From the NCBI GenBank assembly GCA_004764695.1, contig SMSO01000025.1, positions 4,380,862 to 4,444,861 on the forward strand: a stretch of DNA of 64,000 nt, written 5' to 3'. Position numbers and translations under genes: made by a program. Source of the DNA: Schizochytrium sp. TIO01. Taxonomy: Eukaryota > Sar > Bigyra > Thraustochytrida > Thraustochytriidae. The notes beneath the pieces are model-generated. The model had not been told where the DNA came from. It saw nothing but the letters and a program-made list of their open reading frames with translations, and searched no databases. Of the stretch, positions 9,501 to 55,400 are shown in pieces (positions within the stretch are counted from its first letter, which is position 1; the number at the start of each line of letters is the position of its first letter).

Positions 9501-9697
9501 GCGCTCAAGTTGAGACAAACAATCCAACCCGGTGGAAAGGAAACACCACACGCCATAAGGTCAGCAGCCACCCCAACCGTCTCCGGAAAGAAAACCAACC
9601 GGGCTTGGCAACCAACTGCATTCGCGAGAGGCGGCCATTGATTGCTCCATCTGCAGGCTTGGCCAGCAGCAGTGGAGGTCGCGGCGTCGTCGTGTGC

Positions 9698-9852
9698 GAG
9701 CTCACGAGATTACGAGCTCTCGAGATTACGAGCTCTCGAGATTACGAGCTCTCGAGATTGCGGGCTCTCGAGATTGCGGGCTCTCGAGATTGCGGGCTCT
9801 CGAGATTGCGGGCTCTCGAGATTGCGGGCTCTCGAGATTGCGGGCTCTCGAG
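9698..9852. repeat. 16-bp tandem repeat array, about 9.7 copies
   Basis: The unit is GAGCTCTCGAGATTAC in the first copies and GGGCTCTCGAGATTGC in the later ones, so the array is two blocks of slightly different units. Each unit carries the palindrome CTCGAG, and the early units also carry GAGCTC. The period of 16 is not a multiple of 3, so all three frames are open with a 16-residue protein period; this explains the overlapping long open frames here, which are not evidence of genes. Confidence 0.95.
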
Positions 9853-25785: not shown

Positions 25786-28700
25786 TTAAAAGGTAATGCC
25801 AGCATCATCCTCATCGTCATTGGCAACTAAATCGAGATAGTCCAGAGCGCTGGTGGAGGTTGGCTGAGACACATCAAGAGAAAAGTATTCCGAAAGAGCA
25901 GGCATGGACGCACTTGCCATACCACGCTTAGGCGGAAGGCTCGCCTGCGGTGGCATGGCAGTCATTTCTGGTCTACGAAGGTCCAAGTAAGACTGATGAT
26001 GCTTGGCAGCTGAAGCAGCAATCGCAGCAGCATGGCCCATATGACTATCAGCCTCATCTTCCGAGGTTGCACCATCAAAAGACTCACCTCGCTCCTCATG
26101 GGGCTCAATGTCGTCCATATCCTCAACTTTGTCCTCACGGATTGTAGTCACAGGTCCATGAGACTGAAAAGAATGCGAAGGCAGAGCTGTGTAAGACTCA
26201 TAGGTTCGGCGACTGCGGTCTTGCAAGTGAGGAGAGCTTGGACCCAACATGTCACCCATAGAACGAGAACCACGACTCTTGCTTGAGACTCTGGCCAAAA
26301 ACTCCAGTACACTCTGAACCTCCTCTACATCATTGACGAAGTACTGCGCCACAGATGGCTTCTCACCCACAACACAGGTAAACAAATCACCCTTCCATGG
26401 CTCGATTGGAGTTCTTGAGTGGTGACGCAAAAGAGGGTGCGGAGGCGGAGGCGAGTCCGTACCAATACTCGAGGTTGCGGCATCCTCTCCACCTTGTTTC
26501 TTATCAGAATCTTGTTGAGCATCATCCTGGTTGAAGCTAGAGCCACGCTCACGACCCAAGATGCTGTGCGCAAGCATTTGAATTGAAGAACCAAATACAG
26601 AGTCATTGCGAGTAAATTTACCAAGCAGATCCTCACGACCGTTCGCATGCAACTCGTGGAAAAACTCAAACATTGCCTCGTCAGCAATATCATCACCAAT
26701 ACACAAAACGAAGTCGGGCAAGTCGTCCGTAGCTCCATAGACCATGTCCAGAATGTGGGCTACTGCATTTCCCTTGTCGATACCTTGAGGGCACACTTCC
26801 ACATACCCCTTACCTGAGACGACCTCAATAGGAAAGGCCTTCAAAACACCATGCAAATGGTCCTGCAGCTCTGAAGCTTGCAATGCAGCAAACTCAGGTT
26901 CGGCGTCTCGAAACTGCCACACGATCGAAGAACCCTTGCGTTCAATGTATGTACCATCAGTACGCTGTGTGTACACATCCATGATCTGTTCACTGAGATC
27001 CATCCAGCTTGAATCAAAGACATCGGACAAAGTGATCCATTCCCGCATCAACGTATCCTGCACTCGGCGGAAATCAGCCCCGGTGCGACTCCGATGTGAG
27101 GGGCGCGTCTCTTGACTGTCTGAGCTCGAGCTACGCGCACGACGCCGACCCATCTGATGGCGAGGAGGCGCATGGAGCAAGTCACTTCCGGAAGTGCCTG
27201 AAACCAAGGGAGGTGTGACGGTGCTGCGCTGCTTTGGGTATATCTCCCCGGAGTCTTCTGACGCTGGAACAGATGCAGATGAGCGCATGCGATCCGGAAG
27301 GCTGTAGAAGCAGCCATGTTCTGCAGTTAAACCAATGTTCGGAATATCTGCAAAAGCAGCTTCTACCTCCTGACGCTCCCGACCTGACACAATAAACACA
27401 TTGTTACGTGGATCTTCCAGCAACATTTTCAGTGATCGAATCATGCCCGAGGCAGGCACAATGGCCTCGCCCTTGGGGCGGTAGCGGAACTCAAACTTGT
27501 GACGAAGGGTACTCTCGTCCACACCTTCCTGCGGAATTGCATCATCAGATACAGTCGTACCACCATAGTCTAGCACAATGAGTCGAGACTCTGCGGCACG
27601 GTAAGCATCCATCATTATGTCATCAGTGAGATGTTGGAAGTTCGGGCGGAATTCTACAGCACGGAATTGTAACCCAAGACCAAGGCCATCAGGAGTAAGG
27701 CCTTCATGCTTGCCCTCTGAAGACATTGGGCGGGCTGTCTTGATATCCGTTAGTACGCGCAAAGCCCACCCGGTCTCATCATGGTTTATAACATATCGAA
27801 GTGCCGCTGCATGCCGAGCTTGACGTTCCTCAGGATCCATGCTGAGAGCTGACTGTATAGATTCCACAACTTCGTTATCACGCCAAGGATTGCAGCGCAA
27901 GCTACCAGGAAGTACGCGAAAGGCAGCTGTGAATTCAGAGAGGACCAACGATGAGTGTGTGCGGATCTGACGAACCTCCTCACTGACCTCAGGGCTGTTT
28001 GCCAAGGCAGTCCAAGGCCCGCTCTTAAGGGTAGCACGCTCATCAGTAACTACGGTGTACTCAAAGGCACTCAAACCCAAACCAGAACGCAGAGGTGTAA
28101 TCATAAGGATATCAGCAATGGAAAATAAAGCCAGACGGTCTTCGAAACTAGACGAAGACCACTCCACTAGAACGACAGCCGGTCGCTTGCCAGGCGGGCG
28201 CGGAAAACTACGATTGATACGACGAGCAAGCTCACGGACAATATGCAATACCTCTCGAGATTCTTCTGACTCTTGCCGGGTGTGAACTAGCACTTGCAAA
28301 AGGCATAAACGATCTAGCCAAGGTGACTTTTTGCTCCGCTCCAGCTCAAGTAGCTTCTCATAAGACACCAGCTTGAAGTGAATGCCCCGTAAGAATTCAA
28401 TATCATCTAGACCCGCAATGATCACTTGATCGGCGTTGAGCCAATCTGTGTGACTACCGTGATTGGTTGTGGAAGAAGCTCCAGAGAAAGCTGCAGAGCC
28501 TTGCGCCGAGAGTTGCTGCCGCTGTGGATCTTGTGCAGACGAAGGAGGGAGCAAAGGAGGCTTGCCGTCTACAGGAACCTTTTCCTCGACGAACATAGTT
28601 TGCGAACCGCTTGGGGCGGGGTAAGGTACTATACAAGCTCGCAACATTGCGTATGCCTTGGCCGATACTGCGTCAGAACGAAGTTTGTTACGCACCATCG

Positions 28701-30174
28701 CAGCTTCAATGCCTCCATGACAAACCGTAATAAGCACACGGCGGCCTTGGTAGTCAACAGTGAGTACACCATGGCGGTCGTTTTCATTACCATCATGAGG
28801 AATTCCCAGAATCCGATGACAGCATGAAAGAAAGGGTCTTGCATACTCGTACAAGTGAAAACCGATCTGGTCAGCATTGAGCATCCCAATAAGGAGCTCA
28901 TCACGGACAGATAATGTACGAAAAATCTCTGACGAAGGAAATGGTGAGTGGATAAACAGTCCAATTGGCGGTTTGCGGCGCTTCAGGCGCCGGGCCAGCA
29001 TTGAAGGAAGTAAAAGCAGCTCATAACCGTGTACCCAAATAAGATCTGTGTCTTGATACTCTTCCACACAAATACCTAAAAAGGCCTGATTCACCTCTCG
29101 ATACGCTTGCCAGGAAGCCTCGTGCAGCTTAGCATTCCACCACCGAGTAGGAAGAGGACCATACACGTCAACCTGATGGTGAAAGAGTTTGCGGAGAGTA
29201 TCATAACAGAACAAATAATGAAGTCTAGCAATCTCTTCGTCAAGAAAAACAGGAACACAACGAAACCTTGAAAGAGCAGCACGAAGACCCGAACGTTCAT
29301 GGGGCTGAACAGGTGGCTCAATATTAGGGACACCAATGTACACAACGCGCATGTAATCTGCGGCTGACTTCTTCTTGCGCGAGAGCAGGGTTGACTCATT
29401 CCATTCAATGATCCAATCTTGTGCGCCAGATTCTGAATCTGAGCGCTCACGCGTATACTTGGTGTCAAGGTTAGAGTCTGAGGATCGAGAAGAACTCATA
29501 GAAGAAACTGACGTGGATAAGTTGGGCGATGGGGAAGGTCTGGAGAAGCTGCCGATGAATTCACTACGGGATGAATCACCTCTGCTTGTGCTAGGTGTGT
29601 CACCTTCGGGAGAAGATGGAGGTCTAATGTTACTGCGCTGAATTTTTACAGGCAGAAAATGGCTTACAACCATGACACCGTCTGTGGACTCCAAGTCCAG
29701 ACCTTTGCGTCGCTTCTCTCGGTGTGACATTCGCTCCTGGTTATCACTTGATTGTTGACGCGTAGGGAGCTTGTGCTGGGTGGATCGAAATCTTGAGGCA
29801 CTACTTTGGTCATCGTCTTCGTCACCGCCGTCGGTGCGATTATCCGTTCCCGGAATTTGCAAAATATCATTGATTGTGGTTGGGCTCTCTACAAAGAGTT
29901 TGCGCGACTCCCCGTCAGGAAGCTCCTCCCAGCGGGATAACTCGCCACCACTTAGAATGCAGTAGCGATATGAAATGGTCTGATCGGGTGGGAGTGGAAT
30001 GGGCTGCGCCGTATACCATTCGGGGAAAACGTCCGGATCTGTCACGAGCTGGACACCGTATCTATGGTCTCCAGATCCTAGTGCTGCAACATCACCCACT
30101 AAGCATATGGTCTCGCCACGTTCTAGTGGTGCAACCACATTGAAGCTTACACCGACAACGTCTCCACGACCCAT
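25786..30174 (-). CDS. CBM20-TPS-TPP fusion, class II-like trehalose-phosphate synthase/phosphatase with altered active sites
   Basis: The ATG at 30174 starts a 1462-residue product. Residues 1-108 form a CBM20 starch-binding domain (FNVVAPLERGETICLVGDVA, then YRYCILSGG). After a Ser-rich linker, a GT20 synthase fold spans about 275-815 (FIHSPFPSSEIFRTLSVRDE at 408-427). A HAD-type phosphatase fold spans about 860-1320 with VFIVSGRER, GIDKGNA and CIGDDIADEAMF. A long disordered C-terminal tail follows. Key synthase residues differ from active OtsA/Tps1: the VHDYHL motif is VHGYEL (Gly383, Glu385), the sugar-phosphate-binding Arg and Lys are Asp591 and Arg596 (LDDIEFLRG, as in plant class II TPS), and RDG is RSG (697). 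Phosphatase motif DxDGT is DYGGT (Gly871). Both activities are therefore doubtful; a regulatory, sugar-sensing role like plant TPS5-11, possibly tied to starch, is inferred. Confidence 0.93.
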   Translation of the reverse strand: MGRGDVVGVSFNVVAPLERGETICLVGDVAALGSGDHRYGVQLVTDPDVFPEWYTAQPIPLPPDQTISYRYCILSGGELSRWEELPDGESRKLFVESPTTINDILQIPGTDNRTDGGDEDDDQSSASRFRSTQHKLPTRQQSSDNQERMSHREKRRKGLDLESTDGVMVVSHFLPVKIQRSNIRPPSSPEGDTPSTSRGDSSRSEFIGSFSRPSPSPNLSTSVSSMSSSRSSDSNLDTKYTRERSDSESGAQDWIIEWNESTLLSRKKKSAADYMRVVYIGVPNIEPPVQPHERSGLRAALSRFRCVPVFLDEEIARLHYLFCYDTLRKLFHHQVDVYGPLPTRWWNAKLHEASWQAYREVNQAFLGICVEEYQDTDLIWVHGYELLLLPSMLARRLKRRKPPIGLFIHSPFPSSEIFRTLSVRDELLIGMLNADQIGFHLYEYARPFLSCCHRILGIPHDGNENDRHGVLTVDYQGRRVLITVCHGGIEAAMVRNKLRSDAVSAKAYAMLRACIVPYPAPSGSQTMFVEEKVPVDGKPPLLPPSSAQDPQRQQLSAQGSAAFSGASSTTNHGSHTDWLNADQVIIAGLDDIEFLRGIHFKLVSYEKLLELERSKKSPWLDRLCLLQVLVHTRQESEESREVLHIVRELARRINRSFPRPPGKRPAVVLVEWSSSSFEDRLALFSIADILMITPLRSGLGLSAFEYTVVTDERATLKSGPWTALANSPEVSEEVRQIRTHSSLVLSEFTAAFRVLPGSLRCNPWRDNEVVESIQSALSMDPEERQARHAAALRYVINHDETGWALRVLTDIKTARPMSSEGKHEGLTPDGLGLGLQFRAVEFRPNFQHLTDDIMMDAYRAAESRLIVLDYGGTTVSDDAIPQEGVDESTLRHKFEFRYRPKGEAIVPASGMIRSLKMLLEDPRNNVFIVSGRERQEVEAAFADIPNIGLTAEHGCFYSLPDRMRSSASVPASEDSGEIYPKQRSTVTPPLVSGTSGSDLLHAPPRHQMGRRRARSSSSDSQETRPSHRSRTGADFRRVQDTLMREWITLSDVFDSSWMDLSEQIMDVYTQRTDGTYIERKGSSIVWQFRDAEPEFAALQASELQDHLHGVLKAFPIEVVSGKGYVEVCPQGIDKGNAVAHILDMVYGATDDLPDFVLCIGDDIADEAMFEFFHELHANGREDLLGKFTRNDSVFGSSIQMLAHSILGRERGSSFNQDDAQQDSDKKQGGEDAATSSIGTDSPPPPHPLLRHHSRTPIEPWKGDLFTCVVGEKPSVAQYFVNDVEEVQSVLEFLARVSSKSRGSRSMGDMLGPSSPHLQDRSRRTYESYTALPSHSFQSHGPVTTIREDKVEDMDDIEPHEERGESFDGATSEDEADSHMGHAAAIAASAAKHHQSYLDLRRPEMTAMPPQASLPPKRGMASASMPALSEYFSLDVSQPTSTSALDYLDLVANDDEDDAGITF

Positions 30175-46040: not shown

Positions 46041-47435
46041 ATGAGCCACTCTGCTTTCGAGGCGCGTCTGGTGCGTCTGCTGGAGCCTGGATATGATCAT
46101 CTCATAGCTGGTAACCTGGTCGCTTGTGGGGCGACTTCAGGCGAGGTGGTGGAGATAGACCTAGAAAACGGTGCTGCGACGCAGCTAATTGATGGCGTAG
46201 GTCAAGTCTTGTTTCTAGCAAGCTTGAACAAATGCGGTGACACGATACTTGTTGCTACAGAGGATGGCCGTCTCATGATTTTTCGCTCGACTCTGCAAAA
46301 GACCCCATGGATAGAGTCTAAACTTGGCTGCGAGCCAGATGCTTCAGAGACATGGAAACCCAAATTCGCTCTTGCAAATGATGATATCGGATTGAATTCC
46401 CCCGTCTCAAGTCAAACAAGGTTTGCACAAGTTGCTTCACATGGATTTGTCAATACTTCTAGCCTCGCAGTGACAGATATTGATCTTAGACAACAGGGCA
46501 TGCAAACCTCAATTTGGGCGGAAGTACAAGGCCCGATTGTTGATATTATTCTAGTCCTACGGCTTGGAGAAAGCGTTGCAATTGTTGCGAAAGACTCGAA
46601 CATAATGGTTTTCACGAGTAAAGGTCCTCAATGCCAAGTTGCTTGCGTAGGAGTTGGGGCTGTTGTCTGGTTTCAATCTAAAATCTACACCTTATCAAGC
46701 CATCATGGTCAATTATCGTTGTGGTCATTGCGATCGTCCGGTAAACGTCAAGCGTTAACACAAGAACGTTCAGCACAAAGCAGCAGATCATTGTCCCAAG
46801 ACAATCCATGCACCGATGTTGCGCTATATGCCTCACAAAATGAATGTGTTGCAATATGTATCTTTGGGGGGCATGCAGCCCTACAGTTGATCGGATGGAA
46901 CAACACTCTTACGCTTCATCTCAGTGAAATACCAATTACATGTAGATTAACGCAAGAACTCGCAAATCCGGATAGATATGTATTACTAGTTAACAATACG
47001 TGCTTATATATCCTAAGTCCAAAGCTCGATTTAGTAGACTTAGCTTGTCTTCGCCTTCCCGATACATCGAACTTTGGTGATATCCGTCTGCCAGAAAAGC
47101 TTAAAATGACTCTTTTAGCAAATCCAAAGCTCTCCTTTCGCCTAAAAGTTGATCCGCTGGGCATTGTTTGTGAACGTTCCGGCGAAAAACTATGTCGAAT
47201 TGCGCCATGGGATGACACTGGTGAGATATTACAGGCTTGGGATTGGATCCCTAGCGATGCCCAAGACGCAGCTTTACTAGGAAATGGCACAAGTCTTGCC
47301 ATTCTTTGCGGTACATGTCCCCAATCCATCAAAATATTTACCGTTCCATCGGGTAAGCAAGCAAAATGTATCCATCTACAAAATTCCTTGCAAAAACATA
47401 TTTCGCTCTCTCTCTGGACAGTTGGGCATTTTTGA
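46041..47435 (+). CDS. Beta-propeller-like protein, 5' part of a split gene
   Basis: The ATG at 46041 opens a 464-codon frame rich in short beta-strand patterns such as LVACGATSGEVVEIDLENGA, GDTILVATEDGRLMIFR and VVWFQSKIYTLSSHHGQLSL, which look like diverged WD/propeller blades. It ends at a TGA in 47433-47435. The next frame continues immediately with the same kind of sequence, so the two are very probably one gene. A good donor (GGTAAGC, intron from 47353) is present. Splicing to the pyrimidine-rich acceptor ending at 47421 stays in this frame and still meets the TGA. Splicing to an AG at 47473 would give a 121-nt intron that joins the two frames correctly. A one-base shift in the CTCTCTCT run at 47406-47415 is the alternative. 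Confidence 0.65.
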   Translation: MSHSAFEARLVRLLEPGYDHLIAGNLVACGATSGEVVEIDLENGAATQLIDGVGQVLFLASLNKCGDTILVATEDGRLMIFRSTLQKTPWIESKLGCEPDASETWKPKFALANDDIGLNSPVSSQTRFAQVASHGFVNTSSLAVTDIDLRQQGMQTSIWAEVQGPIVDIILVLRLGESVAIVAKDSNIMVFTSKGPQCQVACVGVGAVVWFQSKIYTLSSHHGQLSLWSLRSSGKRQALTQERSAQSSRSLSQDNPCTDVALYASQNECVAICIFGGHAALQLIGWNNTLTLHLSEIPITCRLTQELANPDRYVLLVNNTCLYILSPKLDLVDLACLRLPDTSNFGDIRLPEKLKMTLLANPKLSFRLKVDPLGIVCERSGEKLCRIAPWDDTGEILQAWDWIPSDAQDAALLGNGTSLAILCGTCPQSIKIFTVPSGKQAKCIHLQNSLQKHISLSLWTVGHF

Positions 47436-48630
47436 TGAACCAAATACTCACTTCTTTGTTTCCGAGGCTGAAGATGAACTTGCATACTTTGAGTTACGTC
47501 GCAATCATATATATAGAGTAAGTAAGCAACAAAACCAAGTGATGGCCTCAGCTGTTCTCATTGCAACTCTACCCAATACGGGGGGGCACTATTCACTTGT
47601 AGGAGTATTCAGTGATTACTTTATTTATGCCGAGTTTTGCCCGATACATGGAATTCAAATACATTTCCGTAGCATTCCACAAATCCCAGATGCGGTAACT
47701 TCCGGGCAGCATTTCTCTGAAGAAGCGACAAAGCTTTTCGGCCCTAGAGGGGTTACACTTGCGCCTAACCAAGAACGTTTATTCTCAGTACCCATTTCTG
47801 GCGATTTTCTTCCTGAACACTTTTTTGAGTTTAACAAAGCACGACAACCCAGAACGAGATTTGATTATAATCAGGATGACAAACTTACAATGCGAAACTT
47901 TGCAGAACGTCTTGGTCTTTCAAGCACCTGTAACAATGATGGCACTGATTTGCCACCAGAGCAAGAGTGTTTTCGGGATCACAAGTCGTTACAATCCGAG
48001 GATGACAAACTAGTGGGCTATTGGCGGTTCTGCAATGCTGAGACATTTGACCTTACGGGCAAATCAACTATCATTCAGCCTCTACTCAAAACCATCAAAC
48101 TCATTGACAATGTTGTAAACACCTGCACTGACCTTGATGCGGGAGATGGAGAGGTTGTACCCTATGCTCAATCGGCAGTCTGCCCGCTCATTCTTTCCAT
48201 GCCTGGCCTTTCTGAGCGTCAATGGACCCTTGAGTTCTGGTTCAAAGTTGAAGGGCCGGCACATGCTATCATCAAAGGTCTCGTCTCTTTTTCTCCTCAA
48301 GGGGTCACAGCTCTTGATAATTCGTGGCATCACATCGCCTGCAGCGTGCAAATCCGAAATCCAAGACGCATTGATGTCATTATGTGCTTGCTAGATGGCC
48401 ATCCATCTGGTGAAGAGTTAATTATTGAATCTGACTTAGGCACTCACATAACCAAAACCATTGAGTTGTTTCCGCGAGAAGGTAATGTTGCTGCGTATCA
48501 TGAAGCTATAGTAACTGAAGTTCGGGTATGGAATTGTCTGCGCTCTAGATTCGAAACAAATTTGTCTCGCTGTGCAGCTCTTGAATTAGCAGAAACCCCA
48601 AAGCATAAGATGAAGGTACGCATCAACTGA
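47422..48630 (+). CDS. 3' part of the same gene: propeller end plus LamG-like domain
   Basis: This second frame carries on with GIFDEPNTHFFVSEAEDELA and further strand-rich sequence. A concanavalin/LamG-like domain follows: KLVGYWRFCNAETFDLTGKS, a core with WTLEFWFKV and DNSWHHIACSVQI, and VTEVRVWNCLRS at about 48060-48560. Such domains bind glycans or form protein contacts. In intracellular propeller-LamG proteins they are mostly scaffold parts. No signal peptide is seen in the 5' part, so a cytosolic or nuclear protein is likelier. The frame ends at 48630. A donor-like AAG-GTACGC just before the stop raises the possibility of a further exon, but none is obvious downstream. The partner and pathway are unknown. 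Confidence 0.6.
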   Translation: MGIFDEPNTHFFVSEAEDELAYFELRRNHIYRVSKQQNQVMASAVLIATLPNTGGHYSLVGVFSDYFIYAEFCPIHGIQIHFRSIPQIPDAVTSGQHFSEEATKLFGPRGVTLAPNQERLFSVPISGDFLPEHFFEFNKARQPRTRFDYNQDDKLTMRNFAERLGLSSTCNNDGTDLPPEQECFRDHKSLQSEDDKLVGYWRFCNAETFDLTGKSTIIQPLLKTIKLIDNVVNTCTDLDAGDGEVVPYAQSAVCPLILSMPGLSERQWTLEFWFKVEGPAHAIIKGLVSFSPQGVTALDNSWHHIACSVQIRNPRRIDVIMCLLDGHPSGEELIIESDLGTHITKTIELFPREGNVAAYHEAIVTEVRVWNCLRSRFETNLSRCAALELAETPKHKMKVRIN

Positions 48631-49454: not shown

Positions 49455-52400
49455 CTAGTTGTTGTCACACAAAGTGATACTCGCAATGGCCTCACTACCA
49501 TGATACTGCAGTGATGCGTTCCTAGAATGGTATCGCAAGCCGATGATAATAATTTCTTCAACTAAAAGCTCATCACTCAAAATTGCGCGGTTCTGATAAT
49601 TGTTTAGTGCAAGATTTGTAATAACCTTGTATGCCAAAATCTGTACTTTCTCACTTGCAAGATGATTTTTCATAGCGGCAACAATGTCTTTGCCAACACC
49701 AAGCTCTTGACACAGAATCACACGGTTGCGTTCGCCTGATGCAAGATTCCGAATGGCACCGCAGGCAGAATCTTGCACTTCTTCGTTTGCAGGATGAGCA
49801 CGCATAGCTGCAACGATGTCTTTGCCAACACCAAGCTCTTGACACAGAATCACACGGTTGCGTTCGTCTGATGCAAGATTCCGAATGGCACCGCAGGCAG
49901 AATCTTGCACTTTTTCGTTTCTAGGATGAGCACGCATAGCTGCAACAATTTCTTTGCCAACACCAAGCTCTTGACACAGAATCACACGGTTGCGTTCGCC
50001 TGATGCAAGATTCCGAATGGCACCGCAGGCAGAATCTTGCACTTCTTCGTTTGCAGGATGAGCACGCATAGCTGCAACGATGTCTTTGCCAACACCAAGC
50101 TCTTGACACAGAATCACACGGTTGCGAGCATTCCCTGATGCAAGATTCCGAATGGCACCGCATGCAGAATCTTGCACTTTTTCGTTTCTAGGATGAGCAC
50201 GCATAGCTGCAACAATTTCTTTGCCAACACCAAGCTCTTGACACAGAATCACACCGTTGCGATTATCTTCGAATGCAAGATTTCGAATGGCACCGCAGGC
50301 AGAATATTGCACTTCTTCGTTTGCAGGATGAGCACGCATAGCTGCAACGATGTCTTTGCCAACACCAAGCTCTTGACACAGAATCACACGGTTGCGATTG
50401 TCTGATGCAAGGTTCCAAATGGCATCGCAAGCATAACTTTGCACGTTTTCGTTTGCAGGATGAGCACGCATAGCTGCAACGATGTCTTTGCCAACACCAA
50501 GCTCTTGACACAGAATCACACGGTTGCGTTCGCCTGATGCAAGATTCCGAATGGCACCGCAGGCAGAATATTGCACTTTTTCGTTTGCAGGATGAGCACG
50601 CATAGCTGCAACAATTTCTTTGCCAACACCAAGCTCTTGACACAGAATCACACGGTTGCGATTATTTTCGAATGCAAGATTCCGAATGGCACCGCAGGCA
50701 GAATCTTGCACTTTTTCGTTTGCAGGATGAGCACGCATAGCTGCAACGATGTCTTTGCCGACACCAAGCTCTTGACACAGAATCACACGGTTGCGATTAT
50801 TATCGAATGCAAGATTCCGAATGGCACTGCAGGCAGAATCTTGCACTTTTTCGTTTGCAGGATGAGCACGCATAGCTGCAACGATGTCTTTGCCAACACC
50901 AAGCTCTTGACACAGAATCACACGGTTGCGATCGTCTAATGCAAAATTCGAAATGGCACCGCAGGCAGAATATTGCACTTTTTCGTTTGTAGGGTGAGCA
51001 CGCATAGCTGCAACGATGTCTTTGCCAACACCAAGCTCTTGACACAGAATCACACGGTTGCGATCGTCGAATGCAAGATTCCCAATGGCACTGCAGGCAG
51101 AATATTGCACTTCTTCGTTTGCAGGATGAGCACGCATAGCTGCAACGATGTCTTTGCCAACACCAAGCTCTTGACACAGAATCACACGGTAGCGATCCTC
51201 TGATGCAAGATTCCGAATGGCACCGCAGGCAGAATCTTGCACTTCTTCGTTTGCACGATGAGCACGTATAGCTGCAACGATGTCTTTGCCAACACCAATC
51301 TCTTGACACAGAATCACACGGTTGCGATCTTCGAATGCAAGATTCCCAATGGCACTGCAGGCAGAATCTTGCACTTTTTCGTTTGCAGGATGAGCACGCA
51401 TAGCTGCAACGATGTCTTTGCCAACACCAAGCTCTTGACACAGAATCACACGGTTGCGATCGTCTAATGCAAGATTCCAAATGGCACCGCAGGCAGAATC
51501 TTGCACATTTTCGTTTGCAGAATGAGCACGCATAGCTGCAACGATGTCTTTGCCAACACCAAGCTCTTGACACAGAATCACACGGTTGCGATCGTCTAAT
51601 GCAAGATTCCGAATGGCACCGCAGGCAGAACCTTGCACTTCTTCGTTTGCAGGATGAGCACGCATAGCTGCAACGATGTCTTTGCCAACACCAAGCTCTT
51701 GACACAGAATCACACGGTTGCGATCGTCTAATGCAAGATTCCCAATGGCACTGCAGGCAGAATCTTGCACATTTTCGTTTGCAGGATGAGCACGCATAGC
51801 TGCAACGATGTCTTTGCCAACACCAAGCTCTTGACACAGAATCACACGGTTGCGATCGTCTAATGCAAGATGCTGAATGGCACCGCAGGCAGAATATTGC
51901 ACTTTTTCGTTTGCAGGATGAGCACGCATAGCTGCAACGATGTCTTTGCCAACACCAAGCTCTTGACACAGAATCACACGGTTGCGATTATCTTCGAATG
52001 CAAGAATCCGAATGGCATCGCAGGCAGAATCTTGCACTTTTTCGTTTGCAGGATGAGCACGCATAGCTGCAACGATGTCTTTGCCAACACCAAGCTCTTG
52101 ACACAGAATCACACGGTTGCGATTATCTTCGAATGCAAGATGCTGAATGGCATCGCAGGCAGAATATTGCACTTTTTCGTTTGCAGGATGAGCACGCATA
52201 GCTGCAACGATGTCTTTGCCAACACCAAGCTCTTGACACAGAATCACACGGTTGCGATTATCTTCGAATGCAAGATTCGAAATGGCACCGCAGGCAGAAT
52301 ATTGCACTTTTTCGTTTGCAGGATGAGCACGCATAGCTGCAACGATGTCTTTGCCAGCACCAAGCTCTTGACACAGAATCACACGGTTGCGTTCGTCTGA

Positions 52401-55400
52401 TGCAAGATTCCGAATGGCACCGCAGGCAGAATCTTGCACTTCTTCGTTTGCAGGATGAGCACGCATAGCTGCAACGATGTCTTTGCCAACACCAAGCTCT
52501 TGACACAGAATCACACGGTTGCGTTCGTCTGATGCAAGAATCCGAATGGCATCGCAGGCAGAATCTTGCACTTTTTCGTTTGCAGGATGAGCACGCATAG
52601 CTGCAACGATGTCTTTGCCAACACCAAGCTCTTGACACAGAATCACACGGTTGCGATTATCTTCGAATGCAAGATGCTGAATGGCATCGCAGGCAGAATA
52701 TTGCGCTTTTTCGTTTGCAGGATGAGCACGCATAGCTGCAACGATGTCTTTGCCAACACCAAGCTCTTGACACAGAATCACACGGTTGCGATTATCTTCG
52801 AATGCAAGATTCGAAATGGCACCGCAGGCAGAATATTGCACTTTTTCGTTTGCAGGATGAGCACGCATAGCTGCAACGATGTCTTTGCCAGCACCAAGCT
52901 CTTGACACAGAATCACACGGTTGCGTTCGTCTGATGCAAGATTCAGAATGGCACCGCAGGCAGAATCTTGCACTTCTTCGTTTGCAGGATGAGCACGCAT
53001 AGCTGCAACGATGTCTTTGCCAACACCAAGCTCTTGACACAGAATCACACGGTTGCGTTCGTCTGATGCAAGATTCCGAATGGCACCGCAGGCAGAATCT
53101 TGCACTTCTTCGTTTGTAGGATGAGCACGCATAGCTGCAACGATGTCTTTGCCAACGCCAAGCTCTTGACACAGAAACACACAGTTGCGATCGTCGAATG
53201 CAAGATTCCCAATGGCACCGCAGGCAGAATCTTGCACTTTTTCGTTTGCAGGATGAGCACGCATAGCTGCAACGATGTCTTTGCCAACACCAAGCTCTTG
53301 ACACAGAATCACACGGTTGCGTTCGTCTGATGCAAGATTCGAAATGGCACCGCAGGCAGAATATTGCACTTCTTCGTTTGCAGGATGAGCACGCATAGCT
53401 GCAACGATGTCTTTGCCAACACCAAGCTCTTTACACAGAATCACATCGTTGCGATTATCTCCGAATGCAAGATTCCGAATGGCACTGCAGGCAGCATATT
53501 GCACTTCTTCGTTTGCAGGATGAGCACGCATAGCTGCAACGATGTCTTTGCCAACACTAAGCTCTTGACACAGAATCACACAGTTGCGATCGTCTTGTGC
53601 AAGATTCCCAATGGCACCGCAGGCAGAATTTTGCACTTTTTCGTTTGCAGGATGAGCACGCATAGCTGCAACGATGTCTTTGCCAACACCAAGCTCTTGA
53701 CACAGAATCACACGGTTGCGATCGTCTGATGCAAGATTCCAAATGGCACCACAGGCAGAATATTGCACTTTTTCGTTTGCAGGATGAGCACGCATAGCTG
53801 CAACGATGTCTTTGCCAACACCAAGCTCTTGACACAGAATCACACGGTTGCGAGCATTGCCTAATACAAGGTTCCGAATGGCATCGCAGGCAGAATTTTG
53901 CACTTTTTCGTTTGCAGGATGAGCACGCATAGCTGCAACGATGTCTTTGCCAACGCCAAGCTCTTGACACAGAATCGCACGGTTGCGATTATTTTTGAAT
54001 GCAAGATTCCGAATGGCACCGCAGGCAGAATATTGCACTTTTTCGTTTGCAGGATGAGCACGCATAGCTGCAACGATGTCTTTGCCAACGCCAAGCTCTT
54101 GACACAGAATCGCACGGTTGCGATTATTTTTGAATGCAAGATTCCGAATGGCACCGCAGGCAGAATCTTGCACTTCTTCGTTTGCAGGATGAGCACGCAT
54201 AGCTGCAACGATGTCTTTGCCAACACCAAGCTCTTGACACAGAATCACACGGTTGCGATTGTCTGATGCAAGCCTCGCAATGGCACCGCAGGCAGAATCT
54301 TGTACCTTTTCGTTTGCAGGATGAGCACGCATAGCTGCAACGATTGCTTTTCCTGTAAGGAAATCTAGTTGATCTATATTGGAGATAGAAATGGCATTCT
54401 GAGTCTTACGTTGTGTATCGACAGACGATAATTGAATCAATGGGTTGACGGAATGTGTATGCATGGTCGTTTTTGTTTCTTGACAGATATCAGGATCTTG
54501 GATGAAGGCTCTGCCGCAGCTCGCAGTATCACTGGCGAGACTTGCTAAAGTAAGACAGGATTGGATCTGAACATCTGCGTTCAATTCGTGAGCTTGCATG
54601 GTGGCACATATCTCGAAATGAATATCACGTTTGCTTTCAAAAATCTGGCGCTTCTGTTCCATAAGTATTGGTATTCTTAGGGTCTTGCATGCTGCAATTT
54701 GAACTTCGGCATTAGATCGATGAGAACGCATTGTTTTAGTGATGTGCGTCCCTAAATTTAAGGGTTCCCATATATTCTGTTCAATATTATCATTAAGAGC
54801 CAAGGCATGCAGTGTCTCTAATGCTACATGCTGTATAAATGCATCAGTATCGTTAGATTGCATAAATGAAACAATCTCTTCACCAATATTTGAATCCTGC
54901 CTGAAAAGGGCACATGCTTCGTTATCTCTTTCAGTAATGATGGACAAAGTTTTACAAACCTCCTTGAACACCATCTTATTTGCTCTGTTTGTGCGCAAAA
55001 TTGGAATGATTTCATTAGCAAAGCCAGCTGTACGGCAAACGTCGGCATTCTCAATGAGACTTTGTAAGGCCCGGCATGCCCATTTCAGGACTCTAACGTG
55101 GCGTCGATGCAAATGTATTACCTTGACAATCTCATTAGAAAGTTCTTTTCTTACGTTTGCAACAGGCAAATGCACCTCATTGGAGAAAATCTTACACAGA
55201 CATTTGCATGCATGTCTTTGTAAGTTATCATTGGCTGAGTGTCTCCGCATAGCTTCTAGTAGAACCCGACCACTAGTTGGATTCTGCATCATTTCTGCGC
55301 ACTTATCAGCATCCTTCGAAAGTCTGCAAAGTAACTGGCACGCCTGCTCCTGAATCTTCTCATTCGACGAGTTTGTCAGCATACTAGAGTATATGGCGTC

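Follow-up and report, generated by a model that had tools for sequence, protein, structure and literature searches.

An armadillo-repeat array with diversifying groove positions in a thraustochytrid protein, a possible immune or self/non-self receptor of an unrecognised kind

In a window of 64,000 nucleotides from the thraustochytrid Schizochytrium sp. TIO01 (the whole stretch of DNA that was analysed; contig SMSO01000025.1 of assembly GCA_004764695.1, positions 4,380,862 to 4,444,861), one gene on the reverse strand encodes a giant protein with a long array of homogenised armadillo (ARM) repeats, placed behind a RIPK1-like kinase domain and a predicted MLKL-like four-helix bundle. At the DNA level the repeats are very similar, except mainly at positions that line the putative binding groove, and the groove codons show the pattern to be expected if a binding surface stays under diversifying selection while the repeats are homogenised. 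The array gene possibly encodes an immune or self/non-self receptor of a kind not recognised before. The array is probably a diversifying sensor; for the fuller reading, in which thraustochytrid receptors join such an ARM sensor to an MLKL/RIPK-like output, the balance tips slightly in favour, the sensor pattern being observed, the bundle predicted and the way of working drawn by analogy. This reading is supported by the ratio of groove nonsynonymous to framework synonymous diversity, the variation on one face, the sister arrays, the ARM fold, the MLKL rows of the structural comparison, the relation to RIPK1, a protein from another assembly (P0124), the bundle-kinase-ARM order in Hondaea, and 19 family loci. 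The gene is laid out as follows.

49455..58529, reverse strand: whole protein, an open reading frame (ORF) of 3024 residues without internal stop (stop-to-stop open frame 3031 residues)
57975..58430, reverse strand: N-terminal helical domain, residues 34-185, a predicted four-helix bundle with an MLKL executioner-like fold
56976..57758, reverse strand: TKL/RIPK1-like kinase domain, residues 258-518 (Pfam PF07714, 1.6e-40)
54345..56852, reverse strand: diverged, older ARM repeats, residues 560-1395, numbering about 19 to judge by length (14 are marked by a loose pattern)
49686..54344, reverse strand: homogenised ARM array, 35 units of 44 or 45 residues, residues 1396-2948
52077..53012, reverse strand: multi-unit duplication, units 11-13 (52611-53012) and units 15-17 (52077-52478)
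49554..49685, reverse strand: degenerate ARM unit 36

The homogenised array consists of 22 units of 44 residues and 13 of 45, followed by the degenerate unit, and a preliminary description made from the letters alone had given the coordinates of the array and its variable residues correctly. Tandem Repeats Finder reports 35.1 copies with a period of 132 at 49671-54344 (92% matches, score 7639), and the units are on average 0.922 identical in nucleotide sequence, with pairs ranging from 0.852 to 1.000 when gaps are scored as differences. Compared unit by unit, 11-13 and 15-17 are only 1, 0 and 1 nucleotides apart, which marks them as a multi-unit duplication. The predicted structure is an ARM superhelix of stacked three-helix units (pLDDT 95.8), with helix 3 at unit positions 12-25, and the repeats resemble Pfam ARM_LRRK2 as well as LRRK2 chains. 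Long near-identical arrays are hard to assemble, and in the genome used for searches (64.06 Mb, 37 contigs) there is a locus, L021 (G000:C30:180000-189900), where two head-to-tail arrays, separated by about 5.3 kb, match each other in search scores and statistics and reflect either recent duplication in tandem or a repeat made by the assembly. That the window array is itself mis-assembled or an inflated repeat is very improbable, however: its 35 units share an uninterrupted frame and show 28 distinct groove strings, no pair is identical apart from units 12 and 16, and ARM-array matches are found on nine contigs of the genome, the window's contig included.

Variation among the units is centred on one face of helix 3. 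The groove set was defined as unit positions 13, 16, 17, 20, 23, 24 and 27, equivalent to positions 26, 29, 30, 33, 36, 37 and 40 of designed ARM repeat proteins (dArmRP), which we take to be the positions varied in dArmRP libraries; the register comes from the alignment, and the set was chosen with the array already seen. These seven positions hold 9.14 of the 16.70 bits of column entropy over 44 columns (gapped column 28 excluded), a value reached by 1 of 200,000 random sets of seven columns. Two tests are independent of this choice of positions, namely the helical-face test and the comparison with the most variable columns of other arrays described below. In the former, the six helix-3 positions at most 60 degrees from the Trp33 equivalent have a mean entropy of 1.25 bits, against 0.05 for the other eight, whose distance from it on an ideal helix is at least 80 degrees (helical moment p=0.0047). 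Helix 2 is nearly invariant (mean entropy 0.055). Mapped on the predicted superhelix, the variable helix-3 positions share one helical face. For dArmRP, a part in binding is reported for positions 30 and 33 and one in the interface between repeats for 27 and 32 (PMC4756613), and WxxxN is described as the groove motif of karyopherin-alpha (PMC3885797). PMC6838082, PMC10684580 and PMC12202725 were searched for residue numbers and gave none.

Most codons are nearly fixed across the array, third bases included, but codon 23 takes seven residues and codon 16 five. The sites that the preliminary description had singled out do vary over the 35 units: after VQ (D18 Y13 N2 G1 S1), after SAC (G24 D6 S5), at both residues of the pair after AI (first R18 G5 S4 W3 Q3 A1 L1, second N29 H3 I2 R1) and after LA (S14 F14 L6 Q1). 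It had missed position 13 (K20 E12 N3) and loop positions 28-30, where the 44/45 length change occurs, as well as minor variation at position 33 (R31 C2 D1 G1). Its focus on the groove face was right, but its wording that variation is "confined" to ligand-contact positions is too strong, because the loop between helix 3 and helix 1 (the H3-H1 loop) varies too. In the 44-residue units the gap was put at column 28 by choice, so loop columns 27-30 are aligned by choice.

Nonsynonymous diversity (piN) in the groove codons is 0.257 and synonymous diversity (piS) 0.089, whereas the framework codons have a piN of 0.0203 and a piS of 0.0256 (piN/piS 0.8, 0.47-1.46). The eight framework codons interleaved between the groove codons have a piS of 0.036 and a piN of 0.0097. 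Divided by framework piS, groove piN gives a bootstrap median of 10.1 (6.7-18.6; 400 resamples), and third bases make up 20.1% of pairwise differences in groove codons versus 38.9% in the framework. At loop positions 28-30, piS is 0.55 and piN 0.31. Alike repeats and an excess of nonsynonymous change at chosen positions, the two marks of a homogenised-repeat sensor, are found together here. It could be argued that homogenisation merely keeps the units alike while the groove residues are free to drift, the array being a spacer or scaffold; homogenised repeats break the standard assumptions of dN/dS, conversion or codon preference could hold synonymous sites alike, and piS in the groove is itself raised (0.089 vs 0.026). 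Relaxed constraint of this kind would, however, give a piN no higher than piS, and groove piN is 7 times the piS of the interleaved codons; helix 2 hardly varies, and sister arrays with different frameworks vary on largely the same face. This explanation is considered quite unlikely, and the earlier proposal of a diversifying binding surface is supported by codon diversity and structure mapping, with sister arrays varying at largely the same positions.

Seventeen sister arrays were parsed from the genome, of which g30_183 and g30_188 are alike and g34_435a and g34_435b lie side by side at one locus; their rows comprise only pattern-caught units of 44 or 45 residues, other units being dropped. 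In 16 of the 17, entropy is concentrated in the groove set at p<0.05; g33 is the exception (p 0.159). In 11 sister arrays, piN of the groove is higher than piS of the framework, and in six it is lower, all six among the seven highest in framework piS; in the arrays with the highest framework piS the synonymous sites are old. When the seven most variable columns were instead taken from each of 11 sister arrays (leaving out the duplicate g30_188 and the diverged g24_34, g32, g36, g13 and g33), 10 of the 11 sets also came out as enriched when applied to the window array (p<0.05; g30_183: 0.092). The frameworks of the sister arrays differ, for example NREILGQDLNVGAE versus NRVILCQELGVGKD, and therefore largely the same face appears to diversify repeatedly, in arrays that are related and so not fully independent.

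The kinase domain is RIPK1-like by sequence: RIPK1 is its best solved relative (E 1.3e-28, among the best 60 of 2561 matched PDB sequences), and in this domain the protein agrees with the RIP kinases. To our knowledge, RIPKs have neither the bundle nor the ARM array of the window protein. The VAMK Lys and the catalytic-loop Asp386 (HSD) are kept, and the DFG Asp is replaced by Asn405 (NFG), so that in the window copy a kinase-fold domain that appears degraded follows the bundle, as in the MLKL family. A kinase tree was too weak to place the window protein, with three of 15 inner branches starred and a long branch.

For the N-terminus, structure prediction gives a four-helix bundle with a short helix between h3 and h4, followed by a long brace-like helix. 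In structural comparison MLKL occupies all seven best rows, and full-length MLKL is aligned from the bundle into the brace (model 40-209), though helical bundles easily give middling Z scores. Sequence profiles give the bundle no MLKL_N assignment. MLKL_N finds no match in the window N-terminus at E<=10, matches two of seven relatives (best E 0.091) and none of six database family members at E<=1; neither the family's N-terminal profile nor the P0124 N-terminus retrieves MLKL from the PDB sequences, and comparing P0124 with the family N-terminus by profile failed. An MLKL_N search of the genome found nothing, but its controls were silent too. Such results would fit a signalling kinase that is unrelated to cell death and carries a diversifying ARM array for binding, with the bundle as an oligomerisation or membrane-tether module, and the array evidence is the same under either reading. 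Against this stand the MLKL structural rows, among them the alignment that runs from bundle into brace, the RIPK-like neighbouring domain, and P0124, which has MLKL_N by profile (27.9 vs a cut-off of 27.0 bits), followed in order by a kinase, a SAM-like match that stays under its cut-off, and ARM repeats. A role apart from cell death is rather unlikely, and the MLKL-like bundle with brace helix is a prediction for this N-terminus.

The gene belongs to a family that has tandem copies and in which some copies carry in-frame stops. Counted from 86 rows, the family-level kinase part (32% identity or more to the query paralogue over most of it, counts being lower bounds) is present at at least 19 places, the window's gene included. 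The N-terminal domain accompanies it at 17 of these, in the same row at 12 and in an adjoining row, partly in another frame, at five; at the other two it is found only from query residue 131 or 153. Contig C30 holds 11 of the 19 loci, and in-frame stops occur in two loci. Other loci have different layouts. L025 (G000:C30:5208000-5217900) is a paralogue whose homogenised array is very long, with 45 units parsed; its frame passes directly from linker to ARM repeats, so that the kinase domain appears to be missing. L027, L024, L033 and L032 have ARM-array frames of 948-2590 residues without a kinase in the open frame, L027 with long-period multi-unit repeats that include the odd unit type EAYMLLMKLTCNGAFDVQFI, and L034 (G000:C13:6280000-6289500) has a 1260-residue frame with a family-like N-terminus followed by ARM repeats without kinase.

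Outside this genome, the best 120 of 288 matches of a first protein search look like general kinases, and a second protein search gave 24 matches, to other ARM proteins and P0124. A family-alignment search placed eight clear family members on top among the best 120 of 3483 matches. In Hondaea fermentalgiana, P0148 and P0153 have the N-terminal domain, kinase and ARM repeats, and P0151 is partial; the ARM part of P0153 is short and is followed by mitochondrial carrier repeats, and the protein may be a gene-model fusion. P0146 differs from the L035 paralogue at 8 of 1381 residues, and another sequenced isolate or sample of the same or a very close species therefore probably exists. No description of ARM-array MLKL/RIPK-like proteins in stramenopiles was found in the titles and abstract openings of the papers that the literature searches listed.

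Several known systems share parts of this layout. Fungal HNWD/NLR-like receptors such as het-e and het-d are reported to carry homogenised WD40/ANK/TPR repeats with strong internal conservation, for which concerted evolution and a role in recognition specificity are proposed, behind an N-terminal killer or signalling domain that in some is of the MLKL/HeLo type (PMC10197012, PMC12881547). The preliminary description had drawn this comparison, which is apt as an analogy for the evolution of the repeats; in the window protein the repeats are ARM, a kinase takes the place of NACHT/NB-ARC, the output end looks MLKL/RIPK-like and the host is a stramenopile. A Pfam scan at E<=1 gave no NACHT or NB-ARC match in the array protein, which by this mark leaves it outside the NLRs; the genome has NB-ARC at two places (both over cut-off) and NACHT at seven (five over cut-off). 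MLKL, plant MLKLs and wheat Pm13 are described as an N-terminal four-helix bundle followed by a brace and a kinase or pseudokinase, with the kinase residues kept in Pm13 (PMC10951266, PMC11476962). The window protein has the same predicted order but adds a giant ARM array after the kinase, and its N-terminus goes unrecognised by the MLKL_N profile. By analogy, the fungal receptors appear nearest for the sensor and plant MLKL/Pm13 for the output. LRRK2 likewise combines such ARM repeats with a TKL kinase, but in the window protein the kinase precedes the ARM part and there is no LRR, ROC-COR or WD40 Pfam match above cut-off; ROC-COR was absent even at E<=1, which sets the protein apart from LRRK/ROCO. 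No death domain is among its Pfam matches, and no RHIM search was made. Compared with importin-alpha and dArmRP, the array is natural, has 35 units, and varies its groove residues unit by unit.

How such a receptor might work can be sketched from these parts. The ARM groove would bind an extended or repetitive polypeptide, from a pathogen or otherwise non-self, and binding would cluster or open the protein. The DFG-less kinase domain of the window copy would be the latch, perhaps a substrate of kinase-active paralogues in the way that MLKL is one of RIPK3, and the released bundle would oligomerise and then damage membranes or recruit partners. New specificities would arise from unit shuffling together with point changes in groove codons. 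The chances that the protein has a role in immunity or allorecognition at all are about even. Recognition of self and non-self, sexual or vegetative, is a variant in which the same receptor would not sense pathogens; it has a precedent in the fungal homogenised-repeat receptors, which are reported to act in heterokaryon incompatibility (PMC12881547), but no mating or fusion context is seen within the window (none was looked for beyond it). Thraustochytrids also have known viruses (PMC4512727), and therefore pathogen sensing is equally open; the self/non-self variant is seen as unlikely. More tentatively, and with the chances somewhat against it, these proteins could make up a eukaryotic receptor class for immunity or allorecognition, with thraustochytrids as its centre so far. 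One polypeptide would then unite a killer bundle of the MLKL type, a kinase or pseudokinase of the RIPK type and an ARM solenoid that is hypervariable and reads peptides; active- and dead-kinase paralogues would make a RIPK3-MLKL-like network, and unit order would be a modular, readable recognition code like that of designed ARM binders.

The MLKL/HeLo theme is recorded in animals, plants, fungi and bacteria (PMC9815663). If the receptor reading is true, the theme would extend to another eukaryotic supergroup, and stramenopile protists would own expanded intracellular receptors made from ARM repeats and necroptosis-like parts. Such a family would moreover be nature's parallel to the designed ARM peptide binders, with groove positions varied by evolution on a constant framework, and the relation between unit sequence and ligand would therefore become testable. 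Thraustochytrids are culturable.

A few further observations concern the protein and its surroundings. Whole-protein Pfam matches above cut-offs to Med26, LcrG, ResIII, Alk_phosphatase and a YNR034W-A-like family were set aside as sums over many repeats, because no single stretch passes alone, and a WD40_Prp19 match (E 0.022) lies far below its cut-off. The window has a GC content of 45.8%. Directly upstream of the array gene lies a Plavaka-like transposase ORF of 718 residues (59715-61871, reverse strand; Pfam E 3.3e-6); elsewhere in the genome only distant fragments of it occur (five further rows, four with stops), so nothing suggests that it spreads the receptor family. On the other side of the array gene are two overlapping forward-strand ORFs of 464 and 448 residues (46041-47435 and 47284-48630), for which Pfam at E 0.01 gives no family. 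Farther away, a trehalose synthase-phosphatase fusion with a starch-binding CBM20 domain at its N-terminus is encoded at 25786-30174 (reverse strand), and a tandem repeat with a 16-base unit (9.9 copies, 97% matches) is located at 9695-9852.

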